From contig CM046303.1 of the NCBI GenBank assembly GCA_025267735.1, forward strand, positions 29,612,380 to 29,676,379: a stretch of DNA of 64,000 nucleotides, written 5' to 3'. Of this stretch, positions 4,661-50,480 are shown piece after piece (within the stretch, counting starts at the first letter, position 1; every line of letters begins with the position of its first letter). A program made the position numbers and the translations under genes. A model generated the notes under the pieces. The model saw only the letters and a list, made by a program, of their open reading frames with translations, had not been told where the DNA came from and did no database searches. Source of the stretch: Mactra quadrangularis (lineage: Eukaryota > Mollusca > Bivalvia > Venerida > Mactridae).

Positions 4661-19626
<14,966 letters not shown>

Positions 19627-30965: not shown

Positions 30966-31099
30966 TTACTAAGAGTTACTAAGATATATTGTATCACAGA
31001 TTTACAAGTAATTGAAAAATACCAGCTCAACATGCCGCTACTAAATAAAGTTTCTTACGCTATTTATATATCTAAAGCCACAGTAATGTGATAATATGT

Positions 31100-31295
31100 T
31101 CATCATATGAATCATGGATTCGCTCGCACCTTAATTTTGTCGTTTTTTCTTAACAAATAGTTTTATTTCTTCGCTCGCTCATAACAATTTGGTCAAACCG
31201 CTATATAAAACAACTGAATAAAGATTTTTCTTCGCTCGCTTGCCCATTTTTCCAGAAAATCGATAGAACACATGATCAACTTGTTGTGGCCTAAA
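31100..31295. mobile_element. MITE, GGCCACAACAAGTTGATCAT family
   Basis: Right end GATCAACTTGTTGTGGCC. Core with CTTCGCTCGCT motifs shared (inverted) with 45274-45484. The left end is degraded. Confidence 0.65.
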
Positions 31296-42620: not shown

Positions 42621-42833
42621 AATATATTGAAAACTATAAGATGATTGTAATAACTTAATTTACTAATAAAATATTGTAACAGAGTAAAAATCTATTCAAT
42701 AGTTTTGTTTTAGAAGGGAGATCATTCTAATTGTCTTGTTTAAGTTAGTTTTTGATACATATTACTACATTGTCTCCCTTGTTATAAATTATTTAATAAT
42801 TAATAATTAATTATGCTTTTTTAAAACGCTTAA

Positions 42834-43381
42834 GGTACCTGAACACTTTCCTCCCCAAAAAATGAAAGTTGACCGATTTGAATGAAACTTTGTGTACTTG
42901 ACGTTCGAAGACTGTAATTAAGTATTCCGTCATTGTAACGACGTCATGACGTCATTCTTCTTGGTTTAGGGGCCGTATGTGTAACATGTGCATTTTGCCG
43001 TTATTTATACGTTGATAATTATCATATATGATTAAACATTTAGGTCAGCAATGCTTTGCCCAAGCGACTGAAGTAAAAATATAAGAAAAACGTCCAGTAG
43101 TTACCTTGTCTCACTTATTTTCTATCAGAAACCGTCAAAATTGACAAGTCAAAAACATTAGAGAAAACGTCGTATTTTCCCGTTTAGCTTGAAAACGAGT
43201 TCGGTGAGGGTATCATTTTATTTCATTTTTCGATATAAAATTACAAAAGAAATGATTTAATGAAAAAAAATCGATATGTTTAACGGTCGGAGAACGTCGA
43301 AAAAAAACTTCTAAAGTTTTCTTTTTTTTTGTAGTTTTTTGCTGTCGAAATTTGACGTCCATGTACATGAAAGCAACGTAA
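42834..43381 (+). repeat. Left terminal inverted repeat
   Basis: About 548 bp mirrored at 49440-50001 with few differences. Contains the overlapping CRE palindrome GACGTCATGACGTCAT at about 42940-42955. Confidence 0.93.
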
Positions 43382-43822
43382 TAGACATGGTAGATATGCT
43401 ACACGCGTCGAAACTGCATTTTATACTTAAATACTAAAAAATAGCTGCTATATCATCAACCAGAATAAAAGTTTAAAATGATTTAGGTAAATATTAGATA
43501 CGAAGTAATATTATAGGTATTATACAGCAGAGTTATATGCCGTGCGTAATAATTTGTACATTTTCTCCATATTCAATAAATATTTGATAGTCTAAATTTA
43601 TTTGAAAATATGTTTAATTTGCGCATTGAAAATGGCGCAATTTTGTCCGTGAACGTCCGTGACGTCAATTCAAAACAAATCTACAATCGGTCAAAACAAC
43701 AACAATTGGTAAGATGCGGAACCGGAAAGGCTGTTTCATGTCAAAAGAAAAGACTGAAAGGTCTAATCAAATCAAGGATTTGAATTTACGGGAAGACGAG
43801 TAATGGCAAGTCTTGGTGCGTA

Positions 43823-44061
43823 GGAAGAAGAATTATAGTTTGGTGTTATTTTAGAACATTTGAAATCGTGCAAGACATGCGGTCAAACACTCTTTATACA
43901 TTGTATAGAACAAGAGACAATTTTTGGATTGGGTTCAATGTTGCACGTCTGATGTGAACATTGTACAGCTATAAATTTGATTCCAACTGGAAAAAGACAC
44001 CAGACAAAACTAGAGAGTGGGGAACAGCGTTGTTTCGATGTTAATACAAAGTTAGCGGCAG
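43823..44061 (+). pseudogene. Transposase exon 1 remnant (zinc-ribbon-like region)
   Basis: Starts with GRRII, breaks frame near 43838, then reads EHLKSCKTCGQTL, GLGSMLHV, stop, CEHCTAIN and ends FDVNTKLAA. The two CxxC pairs suggest a zinc ribbon. The expected donor GT reads AT. A short upstream ORF from 43714 (MRNRKGCFMSKEK) may be the original N-terminus. Confidence 0.65.
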
Positions 44062-44621
44062 ATTAGTACAATATATTAAAGTACATAATTAAACATGTAT
44101 ACAATGCCCTACTTTGTACTATATTCCTTCTTTGCAAACAGGCACTGCTCTTACAAAACTTTCGTTATTTGATTAATGTACTAGCTAAATTATTACAGTG
44201 TCAACGTGACTAATTCAAGGAATGATAAATTTTTCAATTTTCGACCTCTATTTCACTGATCCGAAATGAGCTTATGAGTTTATGAGCTATTTGAGTAAGA
44301 ATAAACATGTATAAATCAAAGCCTGTACATGAAGATATAATCATCATCAGTAGGCTTGAGTTTTAGATTTTAATTATTTAATCTGGAGCTGTTGTTTTTT
44401 TATGAAAATACTTCATATTCAACAATTGCGAACAAAACTATTTCGGTTTTGATCTACTTACACTTTGCAATGCAATGAATTAAATAAATTTATCAACGCA
44501 ATATTAAGTTACAAAATATTGTTCATTATATAGGTGTTTGAAATAGATAAATGTCGATAGATTTTTGTTGTCCAAAACAGTTGTATTTTTGATAATGGGG
44601 CTTTAATCTAATTAATTTCAG

Positions 44622-44811
44622 CAATGATCAATGCCGGTGTTGGAGAAACACAGATAAGTGTTATACTTGCCGGAATAAATTTACCTGGCATAAGCAAAAC
44701 TGCATTAAAAACCCGTGAAAGGGAAATAGGATGCTCAATTGAAACTGTGGCTGAATTATCATGTAAAAATGCACTGGAAGAGGAGAAACAATACATGGAA
44801 GAAGTGAACAT
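44622..44811 (+). pseudogene. Transposase exon 2
   Basis: Reads MINAGVGETQISVILAGINL, then KTALKTREREIGCSIETVAE and a helical end (EEEKQYMEEVNM). Acceptor TTTCAG, donor GTGAGT. Intact. Confidence 0.8.
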
Positions 44812-45273
44812 GTGAGTAGATAGTAATATAACACTGTTATTCTTCACTAAAAGTCGTTGTCAGGTTGATAATTTACAAGTATAAATTAAATTGTATTTAG
44901 ACAAACATCATTGTGACAGAACCGTCTTTTATTACGTATAATATTTCAAGTTTTAAAACGATGTTGCGATACTCATGCAGTCGCCGCAGTTATAGTTTAA
45001 GGTCTTAATCTACAGTTTCAATTTTGAAAAGTTGAAACTATAGGATTAAGACTCTTAAACCCTATGTTTAAGTCTGTTAAACTATTGGATTAACAGTTAA
45101 ACCTATAGTTTAAGTAATTATTGTGCAAACGGCATGCCATAGTAATGTCTTAAAAACCGTTAATCAATGTATCTATATTTTATGTAAGTGGCTAAGTGTC
45201 CGAGTGGTGTTAACATTTATTGCATTTTGTGAGATAATGATAATTAAATCATAATGACCCATATTTGAGTAAG

Positions 45274-45484
45274 GCCACAACAAGTTGATCATATCTTCTA
45301 TGGATTTCTCTAGAAAAAAATGGGGCGAGCGAGCGAAGAAAAAAGTCTTTATTCACTTGTTTTATATTGCAGTTTGACCAATTTTTTTATGAGCAAGCGA
45401 GGAAATAAAAATATTTTTTTCGTAAAAACTGTCAAAATTGCGAGCGAATCCATAGAACATATGATCAATTTGTTTTGGCCTAAT
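45274..45484. mobile_element. MITE, GGCCACAACAAGTTGATCAT family, inside the transposon
   Basis: Left TAAGGCCACAACAAGTTGAT and right GATCAATTTGTTTTGGCCTA mirror each other. It lies in the intron between transposase exons 2 and 3, so it came after the large element. Confidence 0.8.
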
Positions 45485-45538
45485 TGTTGTGATATGTACT
45501 TTCGATGAAAGGTTACTATTGAAAGTTCATGTTTGTAG

Positions 45539-45618
45539 GAACCCAGGTGGTGACAATGCTTGAGTGAATGTATCTACTGATGGGGGATGGCAGAAACGAG
45601 GTTCGAACAGTTTATCGG
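45539..45618 (+). pseudogene. Transposase exon 3 with in-frame TGA
   Basis: Reads NPGGDNA, stop, VNVSTDGGWQKRGSNSLSG. The STDGGWQKRG motif is strongly conserved in this transposase family. The stop lies just before it. Confidence 0.75.
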
Positions 45619-45976
45619 GTAAGACATAATATAAAGTTTTCAATTTATGTTATATTTATGACATTTAATGTCAGATCTTTATAAAACATCATACATTGAT
45701 TACACACCATATGATGAAAAGAAATAGAAAGTAACTGAATGGCTTAACTATGGATTATTTCCATTTGTAATTTTTAATCCGGTTTTGATAAGGTTTCAAC
45801 GTTTCATTTCTTGTTCACTTATTTAAAACAAACTCTAGAATATACAAATTTCTATACAAACCCCATTTCACTTTTAACATGAAAATCCAAGCAAAAGTTG
45901 TCACGTGTTTATTTGGTTAACATATTCGTGTTTTTGCTTAAGGAAAACGTGCTGGAAAATTAATTTACAATTTTAG

Positions 45977-46571
45977 GGCATGTTACAGCGGTTAGCCAGC
46001 AGTCAGGGAAGTGCATGTCTTATTCGATTGCCAAGAAATCATGCAGGATTTGTAAAGTTGCAAAACGAGCAAAAGAAACGACTAAAAGGCATGACTGTCG
46101 AAAAAACTGGACAGGATCGTCAAAGGCAATGGAGCCATTTTTGACTGCAACTTGTTTGCAAAAAATTAAGAAACATGGTCTAAATGTGGACAGACTTATC
46201 ATGGATGGCGATACCACCACTTTTTCAAGGGTGAAACGATCTTTATTTCCAGCTATATCGAAATCAAACGACAAAAATCACATAGTAAAAAATTTTGGGA
46301 ATGAGTTATATAAGTTAAAGTCCGTGCATAAAAATATTACTACTGAAGTTATCGCCCACATTCAGAAATGTTTTTCATATGCAATAGCGCAAAACAAAGG
46401 CAATAAGGACTCATTGAAAGCAGCATTAGAGGCTCTTGTACCTCACATGTTTAATGATCATGATAGATGTAACTTGAGATGGTGCAAAACACTTACAGAT
46501 AAAAAGTACACACAAACTGTTGTGCTGACTGGAAAAGATCTTAAGTGCGCCCTACAAAAGTTATTAGACAG
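45977..46571 (+). pseudogene. Transposase exon 4, main catalytic part
   Basis: 198 open codons: CRICKVAKRAKETTKRHDC, KNWTGSSKAMEP, then MDGDTTTFSRVKRSLF with acidic residues that could be catalytic, SNDKNHIVKNFGNELYKLK, and a Cys/His cluster (HDRCNLRWC). Acceptor TTTTAG, donor GTACAT. Intact. Confidence 0.85.
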
Positions 46572-46679
46572 GTACATATTTTTTCTACCGTGTTTTAAAT
46601 ACAGTTTAACTTAGCAAACTTGGTTTTATTAGTATATTTAACAGCTAGTGATATTGATTTTTACTGGTTTTTTTTTTCA

Positions 46680-46850
46680 CCGTGTCAACACATTTTATGT
46701 AATTTTACAGCGTTCAGCGCACCTTAACTAGCTCCCCTGGAAGGGTATAACTTCTCCGTTGGGATTCAAACCCGTACACCCTTCCAAATACGAGATTCAA
46801 AATCCTGGCGCGCTACCAACATCGCTATCGATGACCCAGGTTCATGGTAT
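46680..46850 (-). mobile_element. SINE, family B, in a transposase intron
   Basis: GTGTCAACACATTTTATG, GGAAGGGTATAACTTCTCCG, then a reverse tRNA-like head (GGCGCGCTACC). Matches 14715-15000. Confidence 0.6.
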
Positions 46851-46944
46851 TATGTGAATGACAATCAACTTGTATGCCATTGTTACAAGTGGGACCTAAT
46901 TTTGATTCTAACACTATTACTAATACACAGTACATGTATTCCAG

Positions 46945-47131
46945 GTATATTATCACAGCAATGTTAGATAACCTTATAAACGTAGACAGTACCAACAGAA
47001 ATGAAAATTTGAACCATCTGATCTCCAGAAAAGCACCGAAAGCCATTACTTATTCTGAATCCGAAAGTCTTGATTTTCAAGTATCAGCTGCCGTCCCTCA
47101 AAAGAATGAAGGACATACATATTTAATGCAG
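46945..47131 (+). pseudogene. Transposase exon 5
   Basis: Reads STNRNENLNHLISRKAPKAI then SESLDFQVSAAVPQKNEGHT, the conserved C-terminal block of the transposase domain. Intact, phase 0 at the end. Confidence 0.85.
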
Positions 47132-47394
47132 GTAGTGTTTGTATCTTGAAATATACATGTATTTATAACTAATTTGACTCGCAATCTGAGATGCTTATAA
47201 TGAAATATAATACACGTGTGTGTATTTTAACGCCATGTCCATCAATTTTGCTGATATGTCTATCAAATTGCTATCGTGCACAAGTCGTACATACAAACCA
47301 ATTATGATATTTTCTAACTAAAGCTTCGTAAATAATGTGCAATTAACTGTAAGTTATGTGTTCTATTATAACTTTTTGAATTATGTTTTACTAG

Positions 47395-47526
47395 GTTAAC
47401 GAATTACACGGGTTGTCTCCTGGTCATTATACAAGTAAAAAAATGACGACGCTTGACAAACTACGGGACGATCTCGCAAAGAAACAGAAATCTAGCAAAC
47501 AGAAGAAACGTCGCAATATATTAAAA
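47395..47526 (+). pseudogene. Linker exon between transposase and exonuclease
   Basis: 44 codons: NELHGLSPGHYTSKKMTTLD and a very basic end (KKQKSSKQKKRRNILK) that may act as a nuclear-localisation or DNA-binding segment. Phase 0 at both ends. Confidence 0.75.
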
Positions 47527-47852
47527 GTAAGTTAGTGGTCATAGTCATAAATTTCAAATATTTCATTAATATTTCATAGTTCTTTTATAGTTAGAGTTAA
47601 ATAAAATATTCTATTAAGTATGAATAGTGATTTTTATTTCAGTGTCAAATGGAAATTTGAAAAAATGTCGATAGTATAGTTTCGACAATCTTCGCTAGTA
47701 AGCCGTTTGCTAAGTTATAACGATGCGCGAATATTGTATTACTAACGGTACCCCGTATATCATTTTTGTGCCTTATCATACGAGATAGATAGCATAAAGC
47801 GAAAATTTGAATCATTTTTTAGTTTTGACTGTTATTGTCAATTCCTTTTTAG

Positions 47853-48042
47853 TCTGAAAAATTGTCCAACAACTTGAGAAGCGAAGTTTATGAAGGAAAA
47901 ACATACGAAACTGGGATAGATCACACAGAGACAAATGATGATGACATCATGAATATCCAATGTAATTCTTTAGATCAGACAAATTCACCAACATTTTCAC
48001 CGGAAGACGTAGTTGTTTTTGATCTTGAGGCTACTGGATTAG
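47853..48042 (+). pseudogene. Exonuclease exon 1 (DxE motif)
   Basis: Acidic linker, then DVVVFDLEATGL, the first catalytic motif (D and E) of the DnaQ/DEDD exonuclease fold. Ends phase 1. Confidence 0.85.
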
Positions 48043-48427
48043 GTAACACAATCTATTAAGGCTTTTCAGCTTTAATTGAAAAGTTAAAAAAATACATTTA
48101 GTGTTGAATTTAATTGCACAATAACAACAATTTAAACTTACTCTAAAACTGAGCGTTTAACCTTGTTTCAAGTTAAGGTTTTTAACAACTGCATCAAATT
48201 TCTAACAGGTAGCGTACAATATATTTGATACAGTTGAAAACGATATTTAACTATTACCAGTTGATGAAATAAAAGGAAAATGCAACATATTTTAACAGTT
48301 ACGGTCATTTGTCTTTCACTTTGAAGCCAAATAGAATAACTTATAAGTATCAGTAACAAACACTATATGTTAATTAATTTCTAAAGTGACACATTAACAT
48401 TGTTAAACGAGTACATGTACTTTGCAG

Positions 48428-49224
48428 GTTCAACTAGTAGCATTATACAGATAGCCGCTGTAGGATTGACTACACAAGCAAATTTTAATATATTTGTCTA
48501 ACCAAGTTGTGGTTTTATTCCAACAACAGCAGCAAATATAACAGGTTTGGAATATCGTGCCGGAGTAATGTATAAAGATTGCGAAAAAGTCGACAGCCAA
48601 GATGCCAAAGAAGCCCTCCGTGAATTTATTTGTTGGATTGAATCCTTTAATAGGCCGATTTTGCTCGTTGCACACAATGCAATGTTTGATGCTCGGCTTC
48701 TTTTATCAAACTTAATTAAGGAAAGTATTCATATACCACACGACAAGTTTTGGTTTACAGACAGTTTGAAATATTTTAAGCAACTATACCCTGGTAAAAC
48801 AAGTTATAAACTTGGATACCTTGTAAAGGAAATAATAAACGTAGATTTCAAAGCACATGATGCTTTGGAAGATTGCCAGGCATTATCAGGCTTGTTAAAT
48901 CTAAATTTACTATCTGAATTCCAACATTTAGCTAGCCAAACATTCAGTGTTGTGTCAGTTCAAAACAAATTACGGGAGCTTAGAGACGAGAAATTATATA
49001 AACAGTCATATTCATATTTTGTTGAAAACAAACTCATTTCCAGAGCACAAATAACCAGGCTGGCTAGAAGCGGGCTTTCTCTTGACCATCTTAGGACTGT
49101 CTATTCTAGATCTGGGTTAGATGGTCTTGAGATTATCATAAAAGATAGAGGAGAGAAAAAAGGATATGCTAAATTAGCATCAATACTTCAACTACAATTT
49201 GACGAACAACAAAAAGATGAATAA
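48428..49224 (+). pseudogene. Exonuclease exon 2 and C-terminus
   Basis: Reads SSIIQIAAVGL, a stop TAA at 48499-48501, then ITGLEYRAGVMYKDCEKVDS, LLVAHNAMFDARLLLSNL (second motif D) and AHDALEDCQALSGLL (His and final Asp of DEDDh). About 100 further residues of helical C-terminus follow, to a stop at 49222-49224. All five catalytic residues are present. Confidence 0.85.
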
Positions 49225-49439
49225 GAAAGTATACTGTTTTATAGTTTATCACCCATTTCAAATTTACAACGGTTTTGTTGTTTATCGTATATTCATGATA
49301 TCATTTGTACTTTATATATATAGTAATATAACAAATAAGCTATTTCAAGATGAAATAATTATTATATTATTATCAAGTTTTTACTCTTTATTACATAATT
49401 ATTTTTAACAATCAAGGTGTCAAAATATTATATAATGTG

Positions 49440-50001
49440 TTTGACGTTGCTTTCATGGACATAGACGTCGAATTCCGGACGTCGAATTTCAACGGCAAAA
49501 AACTACAAAAAAATAAAACTATAGAAGTTTTTTTTCGACGTTTTCCGACCGTTAAACATATTGATTTTTTTTCATTAAATCATTTCTTTTGTAATTTTAT
49601 ATCGAAAAATGAAATAAAATGATACCCTCACCGAACTCGTTTTCAACCTAAACGGGAAAATACGACGTTTTCTCTAGTGTTTTTGACTAGTCAATTTTGA
49701 CGGTTTCTGATAGAAAACAAGTGAGACAATGTAACTACTGGACGTTTTTCTTATATTTTTACTTCAGTCGCTTGGGCAAAGCATTGCTGACCTAAATGTT
49801 TAATCATATATGATAATTATCAACGTATAAATAACGGCAAAATGCACATGTTACACATACGGCCCCTAAACCAAGAAGAATGACGTCATGACGTCGTTAC
49901 AATGACGGAATACTTAATTACAGTCTTCGAACGTCAAGTACACAAAGTTTCATTCAAATCGGTCAACTTTCATTTTTTGGGGAGGAAAGTGTTCAGGTAC
50001 C
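49440..50001 (-). repeat. Right terminal inverted repeat
   Basis: Mirror of 42834-43381, about 560 bp, with a ~14-bp extra segment near its inner end. Confidence 0.93.
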
Positions 50002-50480
50002 TTAAGGTATTGACCCTCCAAATTTTGTCCCTACTTCAAGGTGAGTTGAGCACGAGTTGAGTTGTACCAGAACAGCTGAGAATCTAATGTTTCATGATCA
50101 ATCAGTTAAAAAAACAACAATAACCAAAATATACCTTTACATATCTTTCTATCTTGTCACCAAATGACACACATATGATCTAGAATTTTTCGGTCTCAAG
50201 TTTGATCATGGTCTAAGCTCGGTGATATCCTATACACAGTAGACCTCCAAGGATGATCCTGTGAAAAAGACAAACTAATAGGTAAAAAACTTCATTGATT
50301 CACTTTCTTGTCTAACATATTTGCACCAATAGTTAAATCTTAATTTAACACACTAACCCTGCTAATTTACACAGGCATGGATAACTATTTTATCAATCGT
50401 AAGTACAGAAGTACTGTAGTGGGTTTATAAATACAAGGGGTTATTGTTAGCGCCAGTGACAGTTGAATAAGCTTTAACTA

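Follow-up and report, generated by a model that had tools for sequence, protein, structure and literature searches.

The transposon and its spliced gene

The window analyzed here is a 64,000-nucleotide stretch of the genome of the bivalve Mactra quadrangularis (GenBank assembly GCA_025267735.1, contig CM046303.1), and it contains a 7168-bp transposon at positions 42834-50001, between two copies of TTAA. The transposon carries a gene in which a Mutator-like transposase is joined in frame to a DEDDh exonuclease. The element is best explained as a decayed autonomous KolobokD DNA transposon with one spliced gene for a two-enzyme protein, an account that, taken whole and including the mechanism proposed below, we consider quite probable. 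Its features, with terminal inverted repeats abbreviated as TIRs, are as follows.

42830-42833, no strand: left TTAA target-site duplication (sequence)
42834-43388, + strand: left TIR; begins 5'-GG
~43803-44065 (approximate), + strand: eroded upstream coding stretch; Mutator profile positions 10-77 (E 1e-6), three stop codons
44622-44811, + strand: exon, N-terminal part of the Mutator-type transposase (GT-AG, frame; Pfam Mutator E 5.9e-12)
45539-45618, + strand: exon, STDGGWQKRG with the first catalytic D, one stop codon inside (spliced frame)
45977-46571, + strand: exon, CCHC zinc finger, GSSKAMEP, second D (MDGD), DxxH and HDRC..WC (open reading frame; Pfam Mutator E 1.2e-42)
46945-47131, + strand: exon, presumed third catalytic E (NRNENLN) and QKNEGHTYL (spliced frame, alignment of relatives)
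47395-47526, + strand: exon, basic tail of the transposase (spliced frame)
47853-48042, + strand: exon, end of the transposase tail (EGKTYETGI), linker and exonuclease motif I (FDLEATGL) (spliced frame, Pfam)
48428-49225, + strand: exon, remainder of the DEDDh exonuclease (HNAMFD, HDALED) and PML_C domain (spliced frame, Pfam)
49435-50001, - strand: right TIR; ends CC-3'
50002-50005, no strand: right TTAA target-site duplication (sequence)

A sequence-only reading of this DNA had described TTAA on both sides of mirrored ends of ~550 bp. The coordinates are exact to the base, and the inverted ends are ~560 bp long, with 542 of 558 aligned positions identical (97%), plus one 14-base and one 2-base gap, in an alignment that includes five flanking bases. 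Over their outermost ~270 bp, the two ends of the element do not differ. No further copies of the element or its ends were found in the 64-kb window (blastn, E 1e-3).

The gene model has seven exons on the + strand and six GT-AG introns, with the frame kept throughout and the splicing predicted from sequence. The transposase and DnaQ motifs named in the sequence-only reading are present, and the junctions it proposed (47131/47395/47526/47853) are GT-AG and in frame as predicted. The joined frame has 722 amino acids (aa) and two internal stop codons. The last exon (48428-49225) has one internal stop codon and finishes at the gene's own stop codon. The gene is predicted to begin further upstream than the exons first proposed: the eroded stretch at 43803-44065 extends the transposase profile toward the start, and one of its three stops falls within the Mutator-matched part. 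The label of second finger for HDRC..WC is a putative one assigned in this analysis.

The profile search suggested by the sequence-only reading found both enzyme domains in one spliced frame, which bears out its claim of a transposase joined in phase to a DEDDh exonuclease. In the joined protein, Pfam identified a Mutator-like transposase domain at residues 1-259 (E 3.7e-65) and an RNase_T exonuclease domain at residues 448-610 (E 1.2e-13), and the exonuclease sits within the TIRs, in phase with the transposase. Mutator (PF20700) is the only transposase family matching the joined protein up to E 0.1. A third protein part, absent from the earlier reading, is a C-terminal PML_C domain (PF25244) at residues 650-696 (E 4.3e-10; 40.1 bits against a curated cut-off of 27.1). 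An Exuperantia (Exu) RNase H-like match in the joined protein was weak (0.016) and under the Pfam cut-off.

As described by Kojima and Bao in 2022, Kolobok elements duplicate TTAA, have ends of the form 5'-RR/YY-3' and encode a DDD/E transposase with C/DxxH, and some lineages have accessory proteins (PMC9587614). The same paper named KolobokD elements, which encode a DEDDh exonuclease and are known in molluscs, arthropods, and cnidarians; a CCHC finger after the first D is reported there for a few Kolobok lineages, KolobokD included (PMC9587614). The window element has a 4-bp TTAA duplication, and its GG...CC termini fit 5'-RR...YY-3'. Its CCHC finger, CRICKVAKRAKETTKRHDC, lies at residue 112, downstream of the first D, and DKNH at residue 188, after the second D, supplies the DxxH motif (D and H are each kept in 43 of the 44 relatives that cover the site). 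With the DEDDh exonuclease encoded inside the element, the window copy shows every KolobokD feature testable here. Because Kojima and Bao named such elements in 2022, the earlier suggestion of an undescribed system does not stand (PMC9587614). The statement that cut-and-paste transposases normally have no exonuclease was also too strong, as KolobokE is reported to have a lambda-exonuclease-like nuclease (PMC9587614).

Three other assignments were rejected. MuDR/MULE elements have target duplications of ~8-10 bp, and membership in that group is ruled out by the 4-bp TTAA duplication. A host PML/Plex9 exonuclease gene is ruled out by the position of the nuclease inside the TIRs and its fusion to the transposase. 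The TTAA duplication would suit piggyBac, but the ends are GG...CC (a contrast drawn in PMC9587614) and there is no piggyBac-type transposase domain.

Two introns of the gene contain repeats of their own. A ~210-bp unit with 35-bp inverted arms (91%) occupies 45272-45481; it has relatives in the window at 31099-31292 (82%) and 4797-4982 (66%) and is probably a small non-autonomous element. The stretch at 46738-46815 in another intron is related to 14893-14970 (77%) and by eye looks like a tRNA-derived short interspersed element on the minus strand; ARAGORN reported no tRNA genes in the window.

Conservation and occurrence of the fused protein

Relatives were collected in three protein searches (E <=1e-3) that returned 9, 8, and 298 proteins; the third scored the 7996 candidates that had the most words in common with the query, and the best 120 of its 298 proteins were used. 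A total of 134 proteins were obtained, and 61 of these are annotated with a Mutator domain. Among the matches listed, the clam Mya arenaria supplies the nearest relatives. Mutator, RNase_T, and PML_C are combined in single proteins of Mya arenaria (P0010, 717 aa), Argopecten irradians, and Mytilus galloprovincialis, and further fusions among the matches listed are from the corals Montipora, Paramuricea, and Oculina and the beetle Hypothenemus hampei; the beetle fusion protein has no PML_C match. The sequence-only reading had named intact relatives with the exonuclease always absent or outside the TIRs as one result that would speak against it. The fusion recurs, which supports that part of the reading, but the relatives are known as gene models rather than as intact copies with TIRs. 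Two proteins from Paramuricea clavata (P0039 and P0065) are named "exonuclease R569" in the database, and P0039 carries a Mutator transposase domain; therefore, transposon proteins have been filed under nuclease names. One scan of viral contigs gave two loci (L001 and L002) at 27% identity, and L001 has no open reading frame of at least 80 aa on the matching strand across the match; these candidates were dropped.

All five DEDDh residues are kept in 57 of the 61 Mutator-annotated relatives; two of the others are gapped at motif I and two have one substitution. Where the site is covered in the 49 of 61 relatives aligned in full, the transposase residues are also kept (first D 27/27, second D 43/43, E 48/48), and DEDDh is complete in 49/49. 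The wider alignment has 138 modules, which are the 134 proteins, the window, and three typed segments of solved chains. The five catalytic residues are complete in 112 of these; 17 of the other 26 are gapped at one or more sites (three are also substituted), and nine are substituted without a gap. By conservation, the five catalytic columns rank 2, 3, 4, 7, and 16 of 304. Path distances in the transposase and exonuclease trees are correlated (r 0.94; best of 2000 permutations 0.33) for the window and 48 of the 49 proteins, with P0042 left out as too short on one side. Because 57 of 61 relatives keep DEDDh and the tree distances agree so closely, the pair is old and has mostly travelled together, and the nuclease has been kept as a nuclease.

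Candidate roles of the exonuclease

The DDE transposase part would excise the element and insert it at new TTAA sites. A flexible, basic linker is predicted to connect this part to a DEDDh 3'-5' exonuclease of the Plex9/TREX type, which ends in a PML_C (SAM-like) domain. We infer that the exonuclease, because it is tethered to the transposase, would act on 3' ends made by excision, most likely chewing free 3' ends at the donor break, or failed intermediates, with the element's own 3' ends assumed to be shielded within the transposition complex. Such chewing would steer donor-site repair toward template copying. The SAM-like part would probably help grip single-stranded nucleic acid, as is reported for PML-I and Exu. 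The KolobokD nuclease has been likened to exuperantia, TREX, and ERI1, with the suggestion that its substrates are DNA intermediates, degraded from the 3' end (PMC9587614). Trimming of donor ends or failed intermediates, with repair steered to template copying, is tentatively favored as the main role, and our confidence in it is close to even.

Several points weigh against this role or limit what supports it. Left free, a 3'-5' exonuclease could degrade the 3' ends of the transposon itself. Its conservation shows the nuclease to be important but does not reveal whether it cuts DNA or RNA, or whether its targets are donor ends or some other nucleic acid. The same nearest neighbor is found in both trees for five of seven printed sequences; P0025 and P0108 differ. 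The window copy itself is decayed, broken by stop codons, and inactive.

A defensive or stealth role is unlikely but deserves consideration. As in TREX1, the exonuclease would degrade stray DNA outside the cut-and-paste complex, either complementary DNA of rival retroelements or the element's own excised DNA, and the effect would be less host sensing or fewer rivals. Plex9.1 and the TREX enzymes are the closest solved relatives of this exonuclease, and TREX is reported to degrade L1 intermediates (PMC9587614). However, a role in cis agrees better with the co-inheritance and with the physical link to the transposase, and the benefit of a trans-acting nuclease would go to all elements in the cell.

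It is rather improbable that the EXO+SAM part mainly binds nucleic acid in order to guide or assemble the transposase, its catalysis being secondary. The precedent comes from PML-I PXL and Exu, which have the same two-part layout and are described as binding pseudonucleases (PMC12934764). Unlike PML-I and Exu, the transposon lineage keeps the five catalytic residues in nearly all Mutator-annotated relatives and among its most conserved columns. Finally, stop codons in the window copy would suit accidental read-through or an annotation artefact, with a host exonuclease gene lying beside or inserted in the transposon. That explanation has next to no probability and is already contradicted, as the exonuclease is in phase within the TIRs and the fusion recurs in mollusc, coral, and beetle gene models.

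Exonuclease affinity and known systems

Among the PDB matches listed, the nearest solved relatives of the exonuclease are four Plex9-type chains (E 9e-55 to 3e-40), two of which (9L8B and 9L85) are inferred to be of this type; lesser matches are TREX2 (1.8e-10), Exuperantia (2e-9), and TREX1 (3.2e-8). Fold comparison hardly discriminates among the candidates, with Exu, TREX1, and TREX2 lying within ~1 Z unit of one another and a bacterial DnaQ domain scoring 21.0. A Pfam PML_C match is present in 46 of 47 proteins and a Pfam SAM_Exu match in one of 47, where the 47 were chosen from hits to a profile that itself included the PML_C domain. When the window exonuclease part was used alone, its end aligned to the SAM part of Exu (residues 238-324, E 0.011), with no stretch passing by itself. 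A 13-row SAM profile gave no Exu among its five weak PDB matches (best 0.033, unrelated chains), and the SAM link to Exu by sequence was rejected because this profile does not find Exu.

The PML structure 10TH is not among the PDB or fold matches listed. As PML was compared directly by neither sequence nor structure, the link to PML depends on the Pfam model, on names given in the database, and on the description in the 2026 PXL preprint (PMC12934764), and the PML_C model may itself be partly based on such invertebrate proteins. Invertebrate proteins named "protein PML-like" in the database (P0005 and P0021) are exonuclease and PML_C modules with intact catalytic residues. No paper tying KolobokD to PML or Plex9 was found in the searchable literature, in which a single paper names KolobokD. 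A term search did not find "PML" in the main text of PMC9587614, in which neither the PML_C domain nor the affinity to Plex9 thus appears to be discussed.

The EXO and SAM-like module of PML-I, of Plex9 exonucleases, and perhaps of Exuperantia could descend from the KolobokD nuclease, perhaps by more than one capture, with the nuclease kept active in Plex9 and converted in PML-I and Exu to a pseudonuclease that binds nucleic acid; taken jointly, we regard these proposals as possible but doubtful. An analogous argument was made for the KolX protein and P2X7 (PMC9587614). The reverse direction, capture of a host exonuclease by a transposon, is just as possible. Both maximum-likelihood exonuclease trees place Plex9 within the KolobokD modules, but support at the placing node is 17 (45 module representatives and five outgroup rows) and 27 (34 rows). 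In the 34-row tree, P0009 (a long branch in the other tree) and 16 of 26 coral-type clade modules were removed and a third Plex9-type row was added. A KolobokD clade without Plex9 is not rejected in this tree by the approximately unbiased test (p-AU 0.394), and with such low support the placement was rejected as proof of transposon-to-host transfer. TREX rows, which are partial segments without motif I in the 34-row tree, fall there inside the modules beside the coral-type clade (support 62) and outside them in the other tree.

One hemichordate protein would be a relic of nuclease capture if transposon-to-host descent holds. P0005 from Ptychodera flava (371 aa) opens with a stretch recognized by the profile of the transposase tail (39.7 bits, E 2.5e-12), and its first 95 residues reach 42.8 bits, whereas the best of 1000 shuffles reached 7.2. 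Downstream of the tail are an exonuclease with all five residues and PML_C (E 5.9e-17). This protein could be what remains of a KolobokD element, a gene that was captured, or an incomplete gene model. Littorina P0021 has no transposase tail (0.9 bits). New here is a well-bounded KolobokD copy, from a transposon lineage in which the EXO+SAM layout, a dead enzyme in PML-I and Exu, is catalytically complete. If the transposon supplied the module, PML, a protein of antiviral defense and genome stability, would owe a core part to an enzyme captured from a mobile element, and KolobokD copies of fish, sharks, and hemichordates would allow a test of where PML exon 9 came from.

Compared with known systems, the element shares with KolobokD a Kolobok DDE transposase with CCHC finger and DxxH, a DEDDh exonuclease, a TTAA duplication, and occurrence in molluscs; it differs as a separate decayed copy whose protein is 57% identical to Mya arenaria P0004. 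KolobokE and KolobokP are likewise Kolobok elements with accessory nucleases, but these are lambda-exonuclease-like and His-Me finger nucleases (PMC9587614). Plex9.1 (PDB 9MRC/9MRD; 9MRC is a zebrafish protein according to PMC12934764) has no transposase in the solved chain, and TREX1 and TREX2 are more distant in sequence and have no transposase. Among PXL structural homologues, the preprint describes a similar EXO+SAM arrangement only in Exu (PMC12934764). Exu (PDB 5L80) is a pseudonuclease with a SAM-like part missed by the SAM profile. PML-I PXL also has an exonuclease-like fold followed by a SAM-like domain, but it is reported to keep one of four DEDD residues, with no nuclease activity seen (PMC12934764), whereas most KolobokD relatives have the complete DEDDh set.

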